Shown piece by piece: positions 13,171 through 19,396 of a stretch of 64,000 nt of DNA; positions within the stretch are counted from its first letter, which is position 1; every line of letters starts with the position of its first letter. A program made the position numbers and the translations under genes. Under the pieces are notes generated by a model. The model did not search any database. It had not been told where the DNA came from and worked only from the letters and a program-made list of their open reading frames with translations. The stretch comes from Streptomyces griseus (GTDB lineage Bacteria > Actinomycetota > Actinomycetes > Nanopelagicales > Nanopelagicaceae), in the NCBI GenBank assembly GCA_945884695.1, contig CAMCYO010000001.1:124001-188000 (forward strand), written 5' to 3'.

Positions 13171-14313
13171 TTAAGCCAGGGCGAGCATCTGTTCTAAGGC
13201 AATTTTTGAAAAATGTGCGGTTTTCTCATCTACCTTTATTTGATTAACAAGATGATTGGCTACGAGGGATTCCATTGCCCATACAAGGTGGGGGAGATCG
13301 ATTCGGTTCATGGTGGAGCAGTAGCAAACAGTTTTATCAAGAAAAACAATCTGCTTATCTTGGTGATTATTGGCCAAGCGCTGAACAAGATTGAGTTCTG
13401 TTCCTATGGCCCATGCCGAACCAGATGGGGCCTTTTCAATCGTTCGGATGATCATTTCTGTAGAGCCCACCACGTCAGCGCTTGAAACAACCTCGTGTTG
13501 ACATTCCGGATGAACCAGTACTTTGACTCCAGGGATTCTCTTCCTTACTTCATGGACGGTGTCTATTGTGAATCTTCCATGAACTGAACAGTGTCCACGC
13601 CATAAAATAACTTTTGCATTCCGAATTTGATCAGGAGTTAATCCTCCCATTGGCTTCCAGGGATTCCACAAAACGCAATCCCCAAGTGTGAGGCCAAGTG
13701 ACAGTACTGCGGTATTTCTACCCAAATGCTGGTCAGGTAGGAAGAGAATTTTCTCACCTTTGCTGAGCGCCCATTGCATTGATCGTGCCGCGTTTGATGA
13801 TGTACAAACAGTTCCACCATTTGCACCAGTAAAACTCTTAATTGCAGCAGAGGAATTCATATACGTCACAGGTATCGTTTTATTAGCAACACCTAATTCA
13901 GTAAGTGCATCCCAACAAGTCGCAACTTGTTGGGCAGATGCCATATCTGCCATAGAACAACCAGCAGCAAGGTCTGGAAGAATTACTTTCTGATCTTTTG
14001 TTGTGAGAATATCTGCACTCTCTGCCATAAAATGGACTCCACAGAAAATTACATATTCCGCATCTGGTCGCTTAGCTGCCTCTTGTGCAAGTTTGAATGA
14101 ATCACCTGTGACATCGGCAAAATCAATGACTTCATCGCGTTGGTAGTGGTGGCCAAGTATGAGTGCGCGCGCACCTAGAGCTTCACGTGCGACACGAGCC
14201 CGTTGCTTTAGATGGGGGTCACTTGCTGGAGGAAGTTGCCCATCGCATGAGACGCCACGCTGGCTGGCAAGGTCAGAACCTGCCCCAAGAAGTAATAGAT
14301 CACTCAATGCCAT
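13171..14313 (-). CDS. nadA: quinolinate synthase
   Basis: The 380-residue iron-sulfur enzyme condenses iminoaspartate with dihydroxyacetone phosphate in NAD synthesis. It has GHHYQRDEVIDFADVTGDSF at residues 54-73 and three conserved cysteines expected to hold the 4Fe-4S cluster: C119 in GCSMADM, one in GGTVCTSSNAA, and one in VCYCSTMNRI. nadB and nadC are not adjacent. A TAGGCT box lies one base before the ATG; if it is the -10 element, a leaderless start at the TTG at 14307 would fit better, so the exact start is uncertain. Confidence 0.95.
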   Translation of the reverse strand: MALSDLLLLGAGSDLASQRGVSCDGQLPPASDPHLKQRARVAREALGARALILGHHYQRDEVIDFADVTGDSFKLAQEAAKRPDAEYVIFCGVHFMAESADILTTKDQKVILPDLAAGCSMADMASAQQVATCWDALTELGVANKTIPVTYMNSSAAIKSFTGANGGTVCTSSNAARSMQWALSKGEKILFLPDQHLGRNTAVLSLGLTLGDCVLWNPWKPMGGLTPDQIRNAKVILWRGHCSVHGRFTIDTVHEVRKRIPGVKVLVHPECQHEVVSSADVVGSTEMIIRTIEKAPSGSAWAIGTELNLVQRLANNHQDKQIVFLDKTVCYCSTMNRIDLPHLVWAMESLVANHLVNQIKVDEKTAHFSKIALEQMLALA

Positions 14314-14416
14314 GAGCCTATTGTGGCGCCTTCTTTAAGTTTCTGCGAGTAGGCTTTGCGGATAGTGATGTGAAGAACATCCAAGAAAAGCGTTAATGCG
14401 GAGAGAGAGATCGACT

Positions 14417-14773
14417 ATGAGTGCAGAGACAACAATCACCCCAGTTATAACGGGAGTTAAATTAACCGATGTAGCAGCAACCAAAGTTGCCTCGCTATTG
14501 GCCCAAGAAGACCGTGATGATCTTGTACTGCGTGTCGCAGTTCAACCTGGTGGTTGCTCTGGTTTGCGTTATCAGCTCTATTTCGATGACCGCAATCAAG
14601 ACGGCGACATAACTTATGCTTTTGGTAGCGTCAAAGTTGTCATCGACAAGATGAGCGATCCGTATTTGTCGGGTGCCTCCATTGATTTTGTTGACACTAT
14701 TGAAAAACAGGGATTTACTATCGATAATCCCAACGCAGGCAGTTCATGCGCCTGCGGTGATTCTTTTAGCTAA
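14417..14773 (+). CDS. erpA: A-type iron-sulfur carrier (ErpA/HesB-IscA family)
   Basis: The 118-residue protein delivers iron-sulfur clusters to target enzymes. The three ligand cysteines are present: C47 in GGCSGLRYQL and C111/C113 in GSSCACGDSF. The start at 14417 (MSAETTI) is chosen because GAGAG precedes it; an in-frame ATG at 14396 would only add seven basic residues. It sits upstream of the PfkB kinase, the same grouping as Rv2204c/Rv2202c in mycobacteria, and next to the cluster-requiring nadA. Confidence 0.92.
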   Translation: MSAETTITPVITGVKLTDVAATKVASLLAQEDRDDLVLRVAVQPGGCSGLRYQLYFDDRNQDGDITYAFGSVKVVIDKMSDPYLSGASIDFVDTIEKQGFTIDNPNAGSSCACGDSFS

Positions 14774-14830: not shown

Positions 14831-15823
14831 ATGAGAATTGGCGTCGCAGGATCCGTCGGACGTGACCATCTCATGACTTTTCCGGGAAAATTCACCGATT
14901 CACTTGTTGCGGGTTCGTTAGAAAAAGTCTCTCTTTCATTCTTAGTCGATGCTCTAGATATCCGCCGCGGTGGGTGTGCTGCAAATATCGCATTCGGTAT
15001 GGGAGTTTTAGGGCTAAACCCAATTTTGATCGCCGCAGTGGGTAGGGATTTTGCAGATTACCAAACATGGCTTTCGCGTCATGGTGTTGACACATCTCAT
15101 GTTCTGGTTTCAGAAACACTTCATACCGCTTTGTATATGGTTACAACCGATACCGAACTAAATCAGATCGCTTCGTTTTTTCCTGGCGCAATGAGCGAGG
15201 CTAGAAATATTGAACTCCAACCAATTATGGAAAAAACGGGGATTTTGGATTTAATTGTTATTTCACCTGATGATCCAGAAGCGATGTTGCGACACAGCGA
15301 AATTGCGCGCAAACAAGGAATAGCTTTTGCAGCGGACCCATCACAGCAGATGGCGCGAATGGATGGTGAAGAGATTAAGCGTCTCATAGTAGGAGCCAAG
15401 TATCTGTTTCTTAATGAGTACGAGCTTGCTCTAGCAATCCAAAAAACGGGTTGGACCGATGCCCAAATTCTTGATTGTGTTGATGTCCGAATTGTTACTT
15501 TGGGTTCTGATGGATCTAAGGTTGAACAGAAAGGGGTTGCACCAATTTTTGTAGGAGTCGCTCAAGAAAAGGCGAAAATAGATCCAACAGGTGTCGGCGA
15601 CTCGTATCGTTCGGGATTTATTGCTGGTTTAGCGTGGGGCCTTGATTATGAAAGGTGCGCCCAGATGGGTTCAATGCTTGCCACCTACGTAATTGAAACA
15701 AAAGGAACCCAGGAGTACAGATTTACAAGAGATGAGTTCTTAGAACGGTTTGAGTTGGCCTTTGGTGTAATTGCTGCAAAGGATCTTAGGGAGCACCTCG
15801 TACACTTTGGCTTTGACTCTTAA
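14831..15823 (+). CDS. PfkB-family kinase, adenosine-kinase-like (AdoK/CbhK type)
   Basis: The 330-residue sugar/nucleoside kinase has the N-terminal PfkB substrate region GGCAANIAFGMGVLG followed by AAVGRDFADY, and the C-terminal catalytic motif DPTGVGDSYRSGF with the general-base aspartate. The best-known relative in this genomic position is mycobacterial AdoK (Rv2202c), near ctaC, so adenosine phosphorylation is a reasonable inference, though sugar kinases of the same family cannot be excluded. Confidence 0.85.
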   Translation: MRIGVAGSVGRDHLMTFPGKFTDSLVAGSLEKVSLSFLVDALDIRRGGCAANIAFGMGVLGLNPILIAAVGRDFADYQTWLSRHGVDTSHVLVSETLHTALYMVTTDTELNQIASFFPGAMSEARNIELQPIMEKTGILDLIVISPDDPEAMLRHSEIARKQGIAFAADPSQQMARMDGEEIKRLIVGAKYLFLNEYELALAIQKTGWTDAQILDCVDVRIVTLGSDGSKVEQKGVAPIFVGVAQEKAKIDPTGVGDSYRSGFIAGLAWGLDYERCAQMGSMLATYVIETKGTQEYRFTRDEFLERFELAFGVIAAKDLREHLVHFGFDS

Positions 15824-15834
15824 AAAGATTGCAT

Positions 15835-16920
15835 TTATCTACTGCGAAGTGTGAGTACATTTCTTTGAATTGATTGGATAAGCGATTCAACTTGGGGTTC
15901 TTCTATGCCTGGATGCAAAGTTATGCGCACATTTCCATGCGTAGGTAAGCCCATTGCAGCGAGCACATGGCTAGGGCGGAGATTGTCCGCACTGCAGGCC
16001 GAACCAGAATCAACACTAATACCGTCGACCTCGAGTGCTCGGAGTAATTCCTCACCTTCAACATCTTCAAATGAGGCTGAAATCAAATGATCCATGGATT
16101 CATCAAGATTGCCAGCGATAAAACTGCGTTCTATTGCAGAGAATGATTTGCGAATATGAATATTAAAATTTCGCAAACGCTCTGATTGAACTGCATATTC
16201 TTTGCTCCATTCTTCCAGAGCAACGGCACTGGCAAGCAACAATGGGAGTGAAACTGAGTTAGGCGTTCTCTCTGTTCCAATGTGAGGAAGCGGATTTTTC
16301 CATCTCGCTGATTTATTGATTATGACAACTCCAACCCCTGCAGGACCTTGCCATGTTGGAGCGCTAAAGGCAGCAGAACTCCAACGAGTGGGAAGCGGAA
16401 GAGTGGGTAGCGCCTGCGTGTAATCGCAGGCAATTTGAAATTCCTGAGATGCTTCAACGAGTTTTTCAACATCCTGAATAACGCCAGTTTCACCGTTAGC
16501 GACCTGAAGGGCGAATACACCTTGTGAGTTTTTAGAAGTTGCTAGGAGCTCTTGGATGGAAATCTGGCCATCTGCATCAACTGGTATTTGACTCACCAAA
16601 TCCCAATTTTGGGCAACTGCATACACTTCTTTTCTATCAATAGCTGAATGTATGAGGCGTTGTCCATCTTGCAATAAGCCTTGCACTGCAAAAAAAGTAG
16701 CAAGTGCAGGCTCTCCGATAATTTCTATATCGGTAACATCCACGTGGAAATGTTCTGCCAATGAGGAGAGGGCTTCATGGCGCAATATGGCGGTTTTAGC
16801 GCTTTGGTGTCCCAATTTGCGAGGGTCGTGCCAGCCTTGTTCCATGGCCGCAAGGAGTGTTTGGCGGGCCTTGAGATGCATCGGAGCATCAGTCCGAAAA
16901 TTATTTGTGATAGGAACCAC
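15835..16920 (-). CDS. cysteine-desulfurase-like class V aminotransferase fold, catalytic lysine missing
   Basis: The 361-residue protein aligns along its length with NifS/IscS-type cysteine desulfurases: NGETG (142-146), D166 and Q169 that contact the PLP ring, QGPAGVGVVI (191-200) and the cysteine loop SGSACSADNLRPSH with C309. However, the residues that should read His-Lys before this glycine loop are P188-T189, and the PLP-stacking Glu-His-Ser region reads D95-R96-K97. Without the Schiff-base lysine normal PLP chemistry is not expected. The frame is intact, so this is a conserved-looking pseudoenzyme rather than a broken gene. Start is GTG, divergent from ctaC. Confidence 0.75.
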   Translation of the reverse strand: MVPITNNFRTDAPMHLKARQTLLAAMEQGWHDPRKLGHQSAKTAILRHEALSSLAEHFHVDVTDIEIIGEPALATFFAVQGLLQDGQRLIHSAIDRKEVYAVAQNWDLVSQIPVDADGQISIQELLATSKNSQGVFALQVANGETGVIQDVEKLVEASQEFQIACDYTQALPTLPLPTRWSSAAFSAPTWQGPAGVGVVIINKSARWKNPLPHIGTERTPNSVSLPLLLASAVALEEWSKEYAVQSERLRNFNIHIRKSFSAIERSFIAGNLDESMDHLISASFEDVEGEELLRALEVDGISVDSGSACSADNLRPSHVLAAMGLPTHGNVRITLHPGIEEPQVESLIQSIQRNVLTLRSR

Positions 16921-16966
16921 CCGTGGAAGGTTACTCGCTCCTGCTCGTTATGACTAAATAGGGCAC

Positions 16967-16972
16967 TATCAT
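16967..16972 (+). promoter_or_regulatory. -10 box for ctaC, leaderless arrangement
   Basis: TATCAT followed by 7 bases and the ATG at 16980; no ribosome site lies in between. Confidence 0.4.
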
Positions 16973-16979
16973 TTAGCCT

Positions 16980-17741
16980 ATGCCGTCAAGGATTCGCTTC
17001 AAGAAACGCGCGCTTTTGCCTCTACTAGCGCTGATCACCCCCGGCCTTTTTTTATTGACAGGATGTTCCAAAGTATCAAATCTGGGCTTTCCTGAAAAGG
17101 TAACAAGCGTTAACGATTTGTCCTTACCGCTATGGCAGGGTGCGTGGATTGCTGCCGGAATTGTCGGCATATTTACCGCAGGTTTAATCGCATGGGTTGC
17201 AATTTTCCACCGTAAGAAGAATGAGGAATTTCCTAAACAGAGTCAGTATAATATCCCCGTTGAGTTGGCCTATACCATTATTCCACTAGTCATAGTTGCT
17301 GTTCTCTTTGGCTATACGGCAATCATTGAAGATAAAATTGTGAAGCAAGATCCGACAACAGTTATGCATGATATTTCTGTCGAAGGAATTCAATGGTCAT
17401 GGCAATTTGCATATCCCGAAGCTGGAGCGAATGCGATTGTTACTGGCACTCCAGACAAGCCACCAGTTCTAGTTATCCCACAAGGCGAACGAGTCCGATT
17501 TACATTAACCTCGAACGATGTGGATCACGGATTCTGGATACCAGCTTTTATGATTCAAATGCAGAACCTTCCTGGCGTAACGAATTATCTTGAATTTACG
17601 GCTAACAAACTGGGTGAATATCCTGGGCGTTGCAATATGTTGTGCGGCCGAGACCACACACGAATGCTTTTTACAGCCAAAGTTGTGACACCGACTGACT
17701 ATCAAAGGTATCTAGCCCAACTTAAGGTGGCACAATCATGA
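16980..17741 (+). CDS. ctaC: cytochrome c oxidase subunit II (CuA subunit)
   Basis: The 253-residue lipoprotein has a lipobox (LLTGC, C29), two membrane helices (about 55-76 and 96-117) and a CuA cupredoxin domain. CuA ligands H183, C218, C222, H226 and M229 are present. The residue between the two cysteines that is normally glutamate (backbone CuA ligand whose side chain also binds the Mg ion) is M220. The gene ends in an ATGA overlap with ctaD. It takes electrons from the bc1 complex at the outer membrane face. Confidence 0.95.
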
Positions 17742-19396
17742 CAACGCTGGCCCAGCCTCCGCGCGTAATTCGCCAATCAAATTCTTACACAGAACCAAAT
17801 AAGGGCAGATTGTTTGTTAAATGGATTACCTCGACAGATCACAAGACCATTGGTTACCTTTACTTGATTACCTCATTCACCTGGTTTCTAATAGCCGGTA
17901 TTTTGGCTCTATTTATGCGAGCAGAACTCACATCACCGGGTTTGCAGTTCTGGAGCAGTGAGCAGTATAACCAAATGTTTACAATGCACGGAACGATTAT
18001 GTTATTGATGTTTGCTACTCCACTTTTTGTAGGATTCGCAAATGTGATTATGCCGCTGCAAATAGGTGCAGCCGATGTTGCTTTCCCAAGATTAAATATG
18101 CTTTCCTATTGGCTTTATCTTTTTGGTGGAACAATGGCTTTCGGAGGTTTTTTAAGCCCAGGTGGAGCAGCATCATTTGGATGGACGGCCTACGCACCAC
18201 TTTCTAATTCACAATTCTCTCCAGGAATTGGTGGAGACCTGTGGGTTATTGGTCTGGCATTGAGTGGTCTTGGGACAATTCTTTCTGGCGTAAATTTCAT
18301 AACAACTATTTTTACTATGCGAGCACCCGGTATGACCATGTTCCGTATGTCAATATTTTCTTGGAATATTTTATTAACCTCGGTCTTGGTATTGCTCGCC
18401 TTTCCTCCACTAGCAGCAGCGCTTTTTGGGCTTGAATCAGATCGCTTATTTGGTTCTCACATATTCGACGCAGCAAATGGGGGAGCAATGCTCTGGCAGC
18501 ATCTCTTCTGGTTCTTCGGGCACCCTGAAGTTTATATTTTAGCCCTTCCATTTTTTGGAATCGCTACAGAGATTCTGCCCGTCTTTAGTCGCAAACCAAT
18601 ATTTGGGTATAAGGGCCTAATAGCTGCAACAATTGCCATTGCTGCGCTCTCTGTCTCAGTATGGGCACATCACCTCTTTGCAACCGGTCAAGTACTTTTA
18701 CCGTTCTTCTCCTTCATGACGTTCCTAATTGGAGTACCTACCGGTGTGAAGTTCTTCAACTGGATCGGCACGATGTGGCGAGGCTCAGTCACATTCGAGA
18801 CCCCGATGTTGTGGACCGTTGGATTTCTTATCACTTTTCTTTTTGGTGGATTAACGGGAATTATTTTGGCTTCACCGCCACTTGATTTTGCAGTCTCGGC
18901 TTCCTATTTTGTTGTGGCTCATTTCCATTATGTGCTTTTTGGAACAGTGGTCTTTGCAATGTATGCCGGTTTCTATTTCTGGTGGCCAAAGATGACTGGC
19001 AAAATGCTCAACGAGCGCCTAGGTAAGATTCACTTCTGGCTCACTTTCATTGGTTTTCACATGACATTTCTTATTCAACATTGGTTAGGTATTAAGGGAT
19101 TCCCTCGCAGGTATTCGGATTATTTGCCCTCCGATGGATTTACATTTATGAATCAAGTTTCAACTGTAGGTTCTGTCATTTTGGCGATTTCATTGATTCC
19201 CTTTTTCGTCAACCTCTGGATTACCCGCCTAACGGAACCGGTTGGAGTCGATGATCCTTGGGGTTATGGTTCATCTCTTGAGTGGGCGACTTCGTGTCCG
19301 CCACCACGACATAATTTCACTTCGATGCCTCGCATCATGAGCGAGCGTCCAGCATTTGATCTCCATCATCCACATATTAAGACTGAAGGTCACTAA
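17738..19396 (+). CDS. ctaD: cytochrome c oxidase subunit I (aa3 type)
   Basis: The 552-residue, twelve-helix subunit carries haem a, haem a3 and CuB. Ligands and proton-path residues are visible: H84, H262 with cross-linked Y266 (GHPEVYI), H311/H312, H395, H397, D113 and N120 of the D path, E264, and K338 of the K path. The universal HDT triplet before [10 protein letters not shown] reads S387-A388-S389, so the His and Asp that bind the Mg ion are absent. The C-terminus [23 protein letters not shown] is typical of actinobacteria. TAATG overlap leads into ctaF. Confidence 0.97.

Follow-up and report, generated by a model that had tools for sequence, protein, structure and literature searches.

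The window analysed here, a 64,000-nucleotide stretch of DNA with a GC content of 46%, comes from a genome of 1.48 Mb whose named relatives (Ca. Planktophila, Ca. Nanopelagicus, IMCC25003 and AAA027-J17) belong to the acI lineage, Ca. Nanopelagicaceae. It contains an open reading frame of 361 codons, beginning with GTG at position 16920, whose product has the fold of the cysteine desulfurases IscS and NifS but lacks the lysine that binds pyridoxal phosphate (PLP), and is referred to below as the pseudo-desulfurase. The features of the locus are collected in Table 1.

Table 1. Features of the pseudo-desulfurase locus (positions in the window)
Feature	Position	Strand	Basis
nadA (quinolinate synthase), in conserved locus	13171..14313	-	
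erpA, A-type Fe-S carrier, in conserved locus	14396..14773	+	
pfkB-type sugar/nucleoside kinase, convergent neighbour, in conserved locus	14831..15823	+	
11-bp gap where relatives have tusA	15824..15834	.	
Lysine-less IscS/NifS-fold protein (pseudo-desulfurase)	15835..16920	-	ORF, alignment, AlphaFold model, structure match
Cys loop SGSACSADNLRPS with C309 (15994-15996), persulfide cysteine (IscS C328)	15970..16008	-	orthologue alignment
P188-T189 replacing PLP-bearing His-Lys (IscS H205-K206)	16354..16359	-	1p3w alignment; codons CCA ACA
D166, Asp pairing with PLP pyridine nitrogen (IscS D180), retained	16423..16425	-	97% in lysine-less set
D95-R96-K97 replacing PLP-stacking Glu-His-Ser (IscS H104)	16630..16638	-	alignment
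Divergent intergenic region, 59 bp, pseudo-desulfurase to ctaC	16921..16979	.	
ctaC (cytochrome oxidase subunit II), divergent neighbour	16980..17741	+	
ctaD (cytochrome oxidase subunit I)	17738..19396	+	synteny

The genes are arranged in the conserved order nadA-erpA-pfkB-(pseudo-desulfurase)-ctaC-ctaD-ctaF, and the nadA-erpA-pfkB-ctaC framework is common to the acI family and other Actinomycete families. The pseudo-desulfurase gene is divergent from ctaC, and a ctaC/ctaD lies on the opposite strand at 77 of the 80 lysine-less loci inside the acI family and at all 14 outside it. A first, sequence-only reading of this DNA had placed the gene beside erpA and an oxidase operon; ctaC does adjoin it, whereas erpA is two genes away, past the pfkB-type kinase, and on the other strand. 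A promoter scan of the divergent intergenic region found no consensus promoter and nothing above chance.

The class V aminotransferase fold that characterizes the group I desulfurases (IscS/NifS) is readily recognized in the 361-residue protein, which matches PF00266 at 63.3 bits (cut-off 21.5). Its best sequence matches in the PDB are group I desulfurases, including E. coli IscS (1p3w, E 7e-23) and Archaeoglobus fulgidus IscS (4eb5, E 2e-22). All of the NCBIfam equivalog models for desulfurases nevertheless score it far below their cut-offs (113.5 against 530.75 bits for NifS and 84.8 against 643.2 bits for IscS). An AlphaFold2 model based on 27 family sequences (pLDDT 90, pTM 0.87) has the A. 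fulgidus IscS-IscU complex as its top Foldseek match. Alignment of the model by VIA-align to Nfs1, A. fulgidus IscS and E. coli IscS gives practically tied Z scores of 40.6-42 over about 350 residues, with an rmsd to the group I desulfurases of 1.9-2.0 Å over the full length. E. coli IscS (seen with TusA in PDB 3lvj) and human Nfs1 share both the complete fold and the Cys loop, but they are active PLP enzymes and are only about 21-22% identical to the pseudo-desulfurase. The main segment of low confidence in the model is the Cys loop itself (residues 308-315, pLDDT <50), as expected for a mobile loop, and the loop is probably mobile here too.

Column numbers below are those of E. coli IscS and TusA, and for IscS the numbering of the motifs is consistent with the alignment to 1p3w. 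That alignment pairs FSGHKIYGPKG of IscS with FSAPTWQGPAG, placing Thr189 (codon at 16354-16356) in the column of the Schiff-base lysine, K206. The absence of the PLP lysine from an otherwise intact frame, which was the central claim of the sequence-only reading, is therefore borne out, and the alignment likewise confirms what that reading had said of the altered stacking triad, the retained PLP-ring contacts Asp166 and Gln169, and the loop around Cys309. The stacking histidine is replaced by Arg96. Of the phosphate-binding positions, T76 and H205 have been lost (to Ala72 and Pro188, respectively) and S203 is retained as Ser186. Cys309, within the motif SGSACS, occupies the place of the persulfide cysteine in the mobile loop; the sole other cysteine, Cys165, is not conserved. 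Lacking both the Schiff-base lysine and the stacking histidine, the protein is, as judged from its sequence, not an IscS, although it may well function like the hand-over half of one.

Comparison with orthologues was made from fetched loci, 80 in the family and 77 outside it, which do not constitute a random sample. The lysine is absent from all 80 distinct acI orthologues, its column being occupied by Ser in 62, Ala in 13, Thr in four and Leu in one; an identical loss in 80 distinct sequences, which are diverse (mean identity 41%), rules out chance or sequencing error. What is fixed in the family is the absence of lysine, not the Pro-Thr pair that the sequence-only reading had stressed: this pair is private to the window species, and the closest relatives have Ala-Ser and Ser-Thr. 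Among orthologues at the same locus in other Actinomycetes, 63 of the 77 retain the lysine. The sequence-only reading had named orthologues with the lysine as grounds for refuting its proposal; they do exist, but outside the family, where they represent the ancestral state, and they restore no lysine to the protein here. Five metagenome-assembled genomes titled 'Bifidobacterium breve' (L068, L069, L072, L097 and L117) carry the Nanopelagicaceae locus and cluster inside the family in the tree, and their titles look wrong.

The residues that accompany the change emerge from a comparison of 94 lysine-less with 63 lysine-bearing orthologues. The H104 column is His in 100% of the lysine-bearing set and in 10% of the lysine-less set, 87% of which have Arg or Lys. 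At the T76 column, Thr in 98% of lysine-bearing sequences gives way to scattered residues, and at S203, Ser in 98% gives way to Asp in 72%. The Asp of the D180 column (D166 of the window protein) is present in 100% of the lysine-bearing and 97% of the lysine-less set, and N142 and E144 are, like it, almost invariant; the Gln seen here as Gln169 is kept in just 5% of the lysine-less set and does not characterize the group. By comparison, every one of the 156 orthologues whose sequence spans the position has the loop cysteine, including 93 of 93 without the lysine, and Gly325, Ser326 and Ser336 (IscS columns) are 100% conserved in both sets. Since these loop residues are constant while the cofactor-site columns have changed, the alignments indicate that the Cys loop is the fixed point of the protein and that the cofactor cradle has been dismantled. 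The constancy of the cysteine supports the earlier emphasis on this remaining residue; judged by sequence, the protein may be a scaffold, an acceptor or a PLP-free enzyme. Displacement of the catalytic lysine by one column, suggested by FDAKSW in some relatives with Lys at the H205 position, was rejected, since no more than 15% of the lysine-less sequences have Lys there. The only candidate for an alternative conserved lysine is K35, the sole one widely kept in the acI family (90%), and it lies off the Schiff-base position.

Pairwise dN/dS values for the gene (Nei-Gojobori), read with the caveat that dS is saturated in distant pairs, fall between 0.05 and 0.12, which is about twice the values of neighbouring genes but far below 1, and thus rules out a plain pseudogene. 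The gene is present in 92 of 112 acI family genomes of at least 90% completeness. All 20 that are without it come from one genus, and three of these are single-contig genomes. On these figures the gene is evidently maintained under purifying selection and not needed universally, in agreement with the proposal that it is kept for something other than ordinary desulfuration. The genus concerned (g16), in which G112, G138, G226 and 17 others are without the pseudo-desulfurase and congeners retain it, offers a natural functional comparison. One family copy (G344:C45:9311-10363) has an internal TAA stop, and could be a fresh pseudogene or an assembly error.

The number of times that the lysine was lost was recounted on a carefully built tree of 51 sequences, from which the motif columns and the longest rows were omitted, because a quick first tree had missed a better-scoring topology. 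In the better tree the acI family joins the lysine-less families f33, f40 and f45 and Demequina, and some of the losses may therefore be common to several lineages. Parsimony gives seven changes of lysine state (bootstrap range 7-8), at least four of which are forced by well-supported branches. A single clade of all lysine-less rows is rejected by the AU test (p-AU 0.0036), ruling out one ancient loss common to every lysine-less lineage. The clearest independent case is a change from Lys to His within Nocardioides (strain AX2bis). The tree thus points to several losses of the lysine in Actinomycetes from a lysine-bearing ancestral state. The Nocardioides sp. AX2bis gene (L136, 2959-4077) appears to have lost its lysine recently, in a genus that is otherwise lysine-bearing, and still has TusA adjacent to it.

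That ancestral state is represented by the ctaC-linked desulfurase of other Actinomycetes, which shares the locus (pfkB, erpA and nadA) and the Cys loop with the window protein at 30-36% identity. It differs in that it mostly keeps the SAHK motif, the stacking His and the phosphate-binding Thr, and in that TusA is often present as a C-terminal fusion or as the next gene. Divergence from ctaC alongside pfkB, erpA and nadA, which marks the ctaC-linked desulfurase/TusA unit, is found here; TusA is not. None was detected in the window's genome, and the pseudo-desulfurase gene, which carries no TusA fusion, ends 11 bp from pfkB. Elsewhere in the acI family, tusA lies directly downstream at 42 of the 75 loci with room to see, and all 42 keep the CP motif that is the site of TusA's sulfur-carrying cysteine. 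Where sampled family genomes have TusA, it is at the pseudo-desulfurase locus in 26 of 26. The family has lost tusA repeatedly (seven changes), in the window's own clade among others. The Cys loop is invariant also in TusA-less members, so that its role would not depend on TusA alone; with TusA missing from 33 of the 75 loci while the cysteine stays, TusA as the sole partner is ruled out. One genome, G031, carries two copies of the pseudo-desulfurase/tusA pair. A second conserved TusA cysteine (AWC), kept in most lysine-bearing lineages, has been replaced by Ala or Ser in almost the whole family (for example L012, L015 and L025) and likewise in the lysine-less f40 and f45 (L178-L180), a change that may accompany loss of the lysine.

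The sequence-only reading had advised looking for a second, intact desulfurase elsewhere in the genome, and there are two: a SufS in a suf cluster that includes SufU and an IscS followed directly by mnmA. Both are paralogues of the pseudo-desulfurase from the same superfamily, but they keep the lysine and sit in the suf and mnmA clusters. Ordinary sulfur mobilization is therefore already covered in this organism.

The reading that we favour, tentatively and at somewhat less than an even chance, is that the protein is a PLP-free pseudo-desulfurase whose Cys loop acts as a sulfur acceptor or relay, derived from a ctaC-linked, TusA-associated cysteine desulfurase. The ancestral enzyme would have lost its Schiff-base lysine and stacking histidine while keeping the mobile Cys loop, the phosphate cup also having gone in the acI family at large. 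The resulting protein would no longer free sulfur from cysteine. Instead, SufS, the MnmA-linked IscS or a small persulfide would donate sulfane sulfur to Cys309, which would carry it as a persulfide. The docking surface would then deliver it to TusA in genomes that have this protein, and to a different acceptor in those that, like the window's genome, have lost it. The divergent position next to ctaC is a hint that the sulfur may serve a need linked to respiration. Against the relay may be set the evolutionary rate, roughly double that of the neighbours, the loss of the gene from one part of the family, and the missing TusA, which counts against TusA as the only acceptor. Furthermore, what the conserved cysteine shows is that the thiol matters; its conservation would be no different if it bound a metal or a cluster in place of carrying a persulfide.

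This last point leads to the best placed of the alternatives, an Fe-S assembly helper in which Cys309 ligates a [2Fe-2S] cluster together with a scaffold such as SufU or ErpA. A precedent exists: A. fulgidus IscS is reported to have Asp in place of the same lysine, to be without desulfurase activity as a consequence, and to provide a cysteine ligand to the cluster on IscU, and Methanosarcina acetivorans IscS1, also without the lysine, perhaps acts in the same manner (PMC7585200). These archaeal proteins (for A. fulgidus, PDB 4eb5, 4eb7 and 4hvk, and the D199K mutant 4r5f) share with ours the IscS/NifS fold, the replaced lysine and the retained Cys loop, and the lysine-less A. fulgidus IscS is the nearest precedent for the pseudo-desulfurase. 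The Foldseek result and the presence in the conserved locus of erpA and of nadA, which encodes an Fe-S enzyme, are in keeping with such a role. The archaeal proteins act with IscU, however, whereas the ctaC-linked locus has no iscU or other NifU_N gene (the genome's only NifU_N protein is the SufU adjoining SufS), and the companion gene in relatives is tusA, which encodes a sulfur carrier and not a scaffold. In the pseudo-desulfurase, moreover, the stacking His has also disappeared, and the lysine was lost within the Actinomycetes, from orthologues that possessed it. We regard the helper role as unlikely, though it is the main rival of the relay.

The near invariance of D166, N142 and E144, and the recurrence of Asp at S203 and of Arg or Lys at H104, would also suit a remade pocket that holds PLP or PMP non-covalently, or some other ligand, and catalyses a different reaction. 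This is improbable given that phosphate-binding T76 and H205 are replaced, that S203 is mostly Asp and that K35 does not occupy the Schiff-base position. In fold-type I enzymes, which are dimers, the two subunits share their active sites, and serine palmitoyltransferase has a lysine-less subunit, which provides a model for a non-catalytic partner; with two active paralogues in the genome, the pseudo-desulfurase could in principle form a mixed dimer that regulates or stabilizes SufS or the MnmA-linked IscS. A subunit of this kind would have no need of the Cys loop as its most conserved part, and the paralogues are unlinked, even the nearer one sharing just about 31% identity with it where the two align, making this similarly improbable. 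Least probable is a functionless relic drifting towards deletion in streamlined genomes, which would accord with the gene's faster evolution, its loss from 20 of 112 family genomes, all of one genus, and the repeated loss of tusA, but not with the low dN/dS, the unbroken reading frames, or a Cys loop and particular motifs that stay conserved, the loop without exception, in a diverse family of small genomes.

Returning to the sulfur relay, acI strains cannot reduce sulfate by the assimilatory route and depend on reduced sulfur (PMC5301498). Rerouted sulfur transfer plausibly fits this dependence, as context and not as proof. The more far-reaching proposal is that PLP-free sulfur carriers have arisen several times from one ctaC-linked desulfurase by giving up the cofactor lysine and retaining just the Cys loop with its docking surface, and act as pure persulfide relays for sulfur supply or for assembly of the respiratory chain; this is a possibility that we regard as doubtful. 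The tusA companion in many relatives and the recurrent loss of the PLP lysine elsewhere among actinobacterial families take the matter beyond the single gene first noted, and the open-licence literature yielded nothing relevant on TusA with an actinobacterial desulfurase or on lysine-less desulfurases in acI. The locus points to a sulfur-transfer unit beside cytochrome oxidase in Actinomycetes that has apparently gone unstudied. Since annotation of cysteine desulfurases usually relies on fold alone, the pseudo-desulfurase genes of these bacteria, which are among the most abundant in fresh water, are probably misannotated as active enzymes. Repeated loss of the lysine, with the cysteine always kept, amounts to a natural experiment that parts the release of sulfur from its hand-over and makes it directly testable whether the Cys loop has a function of its own.
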